The position numbers and the translations under genes are program-made. A model generated the notes under the pieces. It saw nothing but the letters and a program-made list of their open reading frames with translations, was not told where the DNA came from and did not search any database. A stretch of 64,000 bases of DNA from an uncultured Paracoccaceae bacterium (GTDB lineage Bacteria; Pseudomonadota; Alphaproteobacteria; Rhodobacterales; Rhodobacteraceae), in NCBI GenBank assembly GCA_947498985.1, contig CANMMF010000012.1, positions 1 to 64,000 of the forward strand, in the 5' to 3' direction. Below are positions 16,109 through 16,518 of the stretch, piece by piece. Positions within the stretch are counted from its first letter, which is position 1; each line of letters starts with the position of its first letter.

Positions 16109-16123
16109 GTTCTACCTGTGTTC
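16109..16123 (+). promoter_or_regulatory. Putative LexA (SOS) box GTTC-TACCTGT-GTTC
   Basis: Exact match to the alphaproteobacterial GTTC-N7-GTTC consensus, 2 nt upstream of an in-frame ATG. Confidence 0.6.
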
Positions 16124-16125
16124 TT

Positions 16126-16518
16126 ATGTCGTCCCCTGCCGCCTCACCCTCTGCCACGCCGCCCCGCTGGCCCCGCCCGCCCTCGGCGCTGACCGCGGCG
16201 GAGCTTGGGCTGCCGCCATCGGGGGCGCGGATCACCGTTGCGGGGCTGGTGATCCTGCGCCAGCGCCCGGGCACCGCCAAGGGGGTGATCTTTCTCACGC
16301 TCGAGGATGAAACCGGCGTCGTGAACATCATCGTCTGGCGCAAGATGTATGAACGCTTCCGCCGCGCGGTGATCTCGGGGCGCATGCTGCGGGTGACCGG
16401 GCGGCTGCAGCGCGAAGGCGGCGTGACCCATGTGCTGGCCGAAGAGATCGAGGACATCTCGCAGCTGCTCGACGCGCTGCTCTCCGAGCCGCTTCCCAGA
16501 CCACATGAAACCGGGTAA
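16126..16518 (+). CDS. Stand-alone OB-fold protein matching the C-terminal domain of error-prone polymerase DnaE2 (solo domain or dnaE2 remnant)
   Basis: [79 protein letters not shown] is the DnaE2 tail signature; no polymerase domain upstream. Confidence 0.8.

Follow-up and report, generated by a model that had tools for sequence, protein, structure and literature searches.

The closest described system is the ImuA-ImuB-DnaE2 (ImuC) mutasome, known for example from Mycobacterium tuberculosis (PMC10421592, PMC3919608). DnaE2 in the known cassettes is a single polypeptide with an OB domain at its end, and the genes usually form one operon. The role of the OB in DnaE2 is little studied, and the paper on the M. 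tuberculosis mutasome contained no match for OB-related terms. A 2013 survey reports several DnaE2 sequences without an OB domain (PMC3919608). Polymerase functions can also be supplied in trans: a 2026 survey of bacterial polymerases describes a separate DnaQ proofreading subunit and a standalone FEN-like nuclease that complements Pol I (PMC12926913).

We analyzed a 64,000-nt stretch of DNA (the window) from an uncultured Paracoccaceae bacterium, together with the genome to which it belongs. The genome encodes imuA, imuB, a DnaE2 core with intact polymerase motifs and a DnaE2-type OB, and it has LexA-type boxes. Unlike in known cassettes, the polymerase is two proteins and the genes do not form one operon; here, as in other genomes with a split DnaE2, they occupy four separate loci, each with its own box. 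The complex is predicted here from its genes. As with DnaQ and the FEN-like nuclease, a domain is fused in some lineages and a separate protein in others, but in this case it is a non-catalytic DNA-binding domain, and the polymerase is an SOS polymerase. Separately encoded OBs were not found in the consulted parts of either survey (PMC3919608, PMC12926913), and the open-licence full-text literature searched yielded no report of a split DnaE2 or of an OB acting in trans. Survival of the lost OB as a boxed partner gene thus appears to be new.

The stand-alone OB gene and its promoter

The gene occupies positions 16126..16518 of the window (forward strand) and encodes 130 aa in an intact reading frame. 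The original prediction, made from the sequence of the window, took this frame for a DnaE2-type OB domain, and the protein family models agree. The Pfam match is a single OB domain (PF01336 OB-fold, E 1.8e-13). The top NCBIfam match is PRK05672 (error-prone polymerase), aligned over positions 943-1040 of 1047 (E 1.6e-31); the score of 109 bits is below the cut-off of 939, so the protein is the OB portion alone and not a whole DnaE2. It is 59-75% identical to the OBs of fused DnaE2 in the same family, and model match and identity together place it among DnaE2 C-terminal OB domains.

The OB fold covers residues about 35-120. AlphaFold2, with 31 orthologues as input, predicts an OB barrel (mean pLDDT 88.7) of five strands (residues 35-46, 54-61, 64-71, 87-97, and 100-110). 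The predicted structure was matched by Foldseek to generic OB folds, namely anticodon-binding domains, Stn1, and RPA. The low-complexity N-terminus carries a conserved WPRPP motif (residues 15-19). This segment aligns with the linker of fused DnaE2, and is thus inherited. The protein resembles SSB in its OB fold, small size, and predicted DNA binding, but its family is the DnaE2 C-terminus and it lacks the acidic SSB tail. The SSB family was absent from its Pfam and NCBIfam matches, and a PDB sequence search gave weak matches alone, with SSB at E 0.76 or worse.

The gene is flanked by a perfect 14-nt inverted repeat (GGTAAGGTGCCGGA; 15989-16002 and 16514-16527, 511 nt apart). A mobile element was considered as its source, but no similar pair occurs at the loci of relatives, so the repeat is probably due to chance.

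Immediately upstream of the gene is an exact LexA-type operator, GTTC-N7-GTTC (GTTCTACCTGTGTTC; 16109..16123, forward strand), which is conserved in orthologues. Its end is exactly 2 nt from the ATG at 16126, as originally described. Also borne out was the caution that about one such box is expected by chance and that the adjacency is the informative part: 1.4 exact boxes are expected in the window and 2 were found, a number that is not significant alone. The second (54000-54014, reverse strand, GTTCGACAGCGGTTC) has a GC-rich spacer unlike that of the conserved boxes and is consistent with chance. Position and conservation of the box at the OB gene, and not the box count, are decisive. In the genome_contigs collection an exact box precedes all 61 stand-alone OB loci, versus none of 16 fused OBs, and in 41 of the 61 the start codon is exactly 2 nt past the box. 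In a first genome sample, which partly overlaps this collection (L002 and L178, for example, are one contig), 34 of 36 stand-alone OB loci have the box. None of the 217 window ORFs of at least 100 aa has a box that ends 10 nt or less from the first start codon possible for it, a control based on first in-frame starts, by which the OB ORF begins upstream of its box and is not counted. In Dinoroseobacter shibae the box of the chromosomal OB gene (G050:C1, near 2,893,890-2,894,265) is GTTCTTTATATGTTC.

A putative -10 element, TACCTG (16113..16118, forward strand), lies within the operator and 7 nt ahead of the ATG, and a putative -35 element, TTGGCC (16090..16095, forward strand), lies 17 nt upstream of it. 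Across 41 aligned orthologous promoters there is a conserved -35-like CTTGC (T 95%, G 93%, and C 78% at the positions equivalent to the -35), a -10-like hexamer with the consensus TAT.TT within the box, and an ATG 7 nt past the -10. Because the putative -10 is inside the operator and the ATG follows so closely, the OB message would be leaderless and LexA would repress by occupying the -10. Consistent with membership in the LexA (SOS) regulon, the promoter operator is conserved across orthologues, and lexA is itself present and preceded by its own box.

The gene was originally read as retained, and its evolution agrees. Pairwise dN/dS has a median of 0.24 (counting method), well away from the value near 1 that would have spoken against retention, and 40 columns are invariant among 31 orthologues. 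By these measures the OB gene is retained under purifying selection.

The DnaE2 core and the dispersed SOS genes

The 5.3-Mb assembly that contains the window encodes two C-family polymerases, DnaE1 and a DnaE2 core, and no second DnaE2-type OB was found in it. The core (1044 aa; C2:141351-144482) is on another contig than the OB gene. By Pfam it has PHP, palm, finger, and HhH domains and no OB, and is thus an OB-less DnaE2 of the kind mentioned in the 2013 survey (PMC3919608). The core retains PDIDVDF and KVDVLSLGML as active-site motifs and is predicted to be catalytically intact. It matches PRK05672 over positions 5-938 with 1208.6 bits, above the cut-off of 939. The small protein covers positions 943-1040, so the two are complementary halves of one known protein; in a relative with a fused DnaE2 (G011) the match runs from 6 to 1047, OB included. 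It had been proposed to look for a full dnaE2 in the same genome: a DnaE2 is there, lacking exactly the OB domain.

The OB gene is the product of a domain fission of DnaE2 and not a deletion remnant. The suggestion that an imuAB-dnaE2 operon was deleted down to its promoter and 3' tail does not hold, since DnaE2 minus its OB is encoded on another contig, imuB (G000:C2:577620-578777) and imuA (G000:C3:315686-316123) are at two further boxed loci, and the OB gene is conserved. A frameshift or assembly error dividing a single dnaE2 was also ruled out, since core and OB are on different contigs and, at most of the loci examined, the OB gene has the same ferredoxin gene as its neighbour. The split is also seen on complete chromosomes: in G014 the OB gene is at position 62874 of C1 and the core at 1557944, and G060 and G149 are likewise split.

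The other SOS genes also have boxes. Core promoters carry GAAC-N7-GAA(C/T) adjoining a TATACT-like element; the best box-like site has at most one mismatch in 39 of 42 core promoters, versus about 6% of shuffled sequences. In split genomes imuB is unlinked from dnaE2 and imuA and has an exact box just upstream (9 of 9), and imuA is unlinked from dnaE2 and imuB and is likewise preceded by an exact box (8 of 8). Overall, in the split genomes examined, the classic imuA-imuB-dnaE2 operon is now four separately boxed genes: an SOS operon was dispersed into four units, each of which keeps a LexA-type box.

Spread and origin of the split

We surveyed 220 genera of the family Rhodobacteraceae, with one genome per genus; the counts are of matches down to a low-score cut-off, so divergent cases may be missing. 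A stand-alone OB was identified in 95 of the 220 genera and an OB-less DnaE2 also in 95, with both in 91 (93 if cores broken by contig ends are included). The pairing is strong (Fisher p 2e-54, phylogeny not accounted for), and co-occurrence and box conservation are partly inherited and not independent events. Split loci were seen in Roseovarius, Marivita, Ruegeria, Shimia, Roseivivax, Tropicimonas, and others, so stand-alone orthologues with an upstream box, for which a search had been suggested, are many. Most other family members have a fused DnaE2, often behind imuA-imuB. The OB gene has a conserved neighbourhood: a divergent 2Fe-2S ferredoxin gene lies on one side, and the genes on the opposite side encode a peptidoglycan-binding protein and a DegP protease. 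Thus about 40% of the genera sampled from this major bacterial family have kept a cleanly cut-off OB as a separate boxed gene. The split offers an explanation for the OB-less DnaE2 proteins noted in 2013.

In a tree of DnaE2 cores, 34 of 35 sampled split cores form one clade (support 100/97). The remaining one, from G194, falls just outside this main clade together with the fused DnaE2 of G018, and the fused DnaE2 of G005 is sister to the main clade. A comparison of one fission with two gave an AU p of 0.065. As part of the best overall explanation, the fission probably took place, in one event or two, in an ancestor shared by much of the Rhodobacteraceae/Roseobacter group. In G194 the boxed OB gene is 1.1 kb downstream of the core, and the stand-alone OB has kept the tail of fused DnaE2, HPRDQAKRLFPSRDFH, at its end. 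This tail suggests derivation of the stand-alone OB from a fused DnaE2.

Several split cores (L032/L033, and those of G174 and G021 at loci L104 and L049) end in a common HPR....PIP.TR(A/G)NPD, which is faintly like the HPREQAK.LFPSRDFH tail of fused DnaE2. From this likeness, the OB could have been excised internally and not truncated.

Two genomes with a fused dnaE2 have arrangements that are possible intermediates of operon break-up. In G018 (L147, 2600-8300) imuA-imuB is divergent from dnaE2, and in G005 (L271) about 11 kb separate imuA from imuB, and the two are on a different contig from dnaE2. Given these arrangements, operon break-up may have preceded fission.

A probable trans subunit of the SOS mutasome, and the exceptions

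We consider it probable that the OB gene, split from DnaE2 by fission and kept as an SOS gene of its own, encodes a DNA-binding subunit that acts in trans in the SOS mutasome, with its association and LexA control being the inferred parts. After DNA damage LexA would be cleaved and the four separately promoted proteins would be made. The free OB protein would then bind non-covalently to the DnaE2 core, or to the ImuA-ImuB-DnaE2 complex, and hold single-stranded template near the active site. Acting in trans, it would thereby replace the tethered OB of other bacteria. The original alternative of a small SOS-induced protein that binds ssDNA or modulates the mutasome came close to this; what it missed is the partner, the OB-less DnaE2.

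More tentatively, the mutasome of the Roseobacter group could be a four-part machine with a dissociable, separately LexA-controlled OB. Mutagenic synthesis would then behave as an AND gate, since unlinked parts would have to be expressed at the same time and assembled. In such a machine the free OB might be limiting or be swapped between polymerases.

The OB protein could instead have left DnaE2 permanently and now be an independent SOS-induced ssDNA-binding protein that coats or protects DNA without the polymerase. The fold is like that of generic ssDNA- or RNA-binding OBs (Stn1, RPA, and anticodon-binding domains), and several genomes have one half of the pair without the other. Specifically, G066 (L136; a 100% complete genome) lacks a DnaE2 core but has a stand-alone OB gene that is intact and boxed, which makes it the best test case for an independent function, and in G227 a boxed OB gene persists with a fragmentary core and a fused DnaE2. 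Conversely, four genomes have a core without an OB (G059, G079, G164, and G181); the G059, G164, and G181 assemblies also lack the neighbouring ferredoxin gene, and in G079 the contig breaks beside it. We nevertheless regard this alternative as unlikely, because 91 of the 95 stand-alone OBs co-occur with OB-less cores and because the similarity of the window's OB to fused OBs is as expected if its partner is unchanged. Loss is also coupled. Only a relic of the OB gene, about 51 codons long and lacking the box, is left in the close relative G003, which shares the neighbourhood of this locus; G003 has also lost the split core, and two fused imuA-imuB-dnaE2 operons have taken over. The exceptions may indicate that the OB has some value of its own, or they may be recent losses; dependence between OB and core is strong, perhaps not absolute.

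Another possibility is that the OB modulates the mutasome or switches polymerases by acting in trans on ImuB, ImuA, the clamp, or the replicative DnaE1, and does not serve as the lost DnaE2 domain. The same box type precedes imuA and imuB in the same genomes, and WPRPP, which is not part of the OB fold, could serve for docking. This seems very unlikely to us, given that the OB gene occurs together with OB-less DnaE2, a link that a general modulator would not require, and that the N-terminal segment is inherited from the fused linker. A non-functional remnant, in which a chance box lies by the decaying 3' end of a deleted dnaE2, would fit the chance-level box count of the window and has a real counterpart in the G003 relic, but it is refuted by the conservation of the gene (intact in 95 of 220 genera, with low dN/dS, invariant residues, and box and spacing kept) and is hardly credible.

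For the probable role as a trans subunit of DnaE2, a separate gene makes the function of the OB testable: in tractable marine bacteria such as D. shibae it can simply be deleted, complemented, or fused back to the core. The G050 genome is D. shibae DFL 12, as shown by a match to plasmid pDSHI03 at 8763 of 8763 bases. Its chromosome encodes the split pair, with the core at G050:C1 99,840-102,836, and pDSHI03 (L144/L291) carries a fused imuA-imuB-dnaE2. This plasmid is conjugative, and a gene for an SOS-response-associated peptidase is upstream of the fused cassette.
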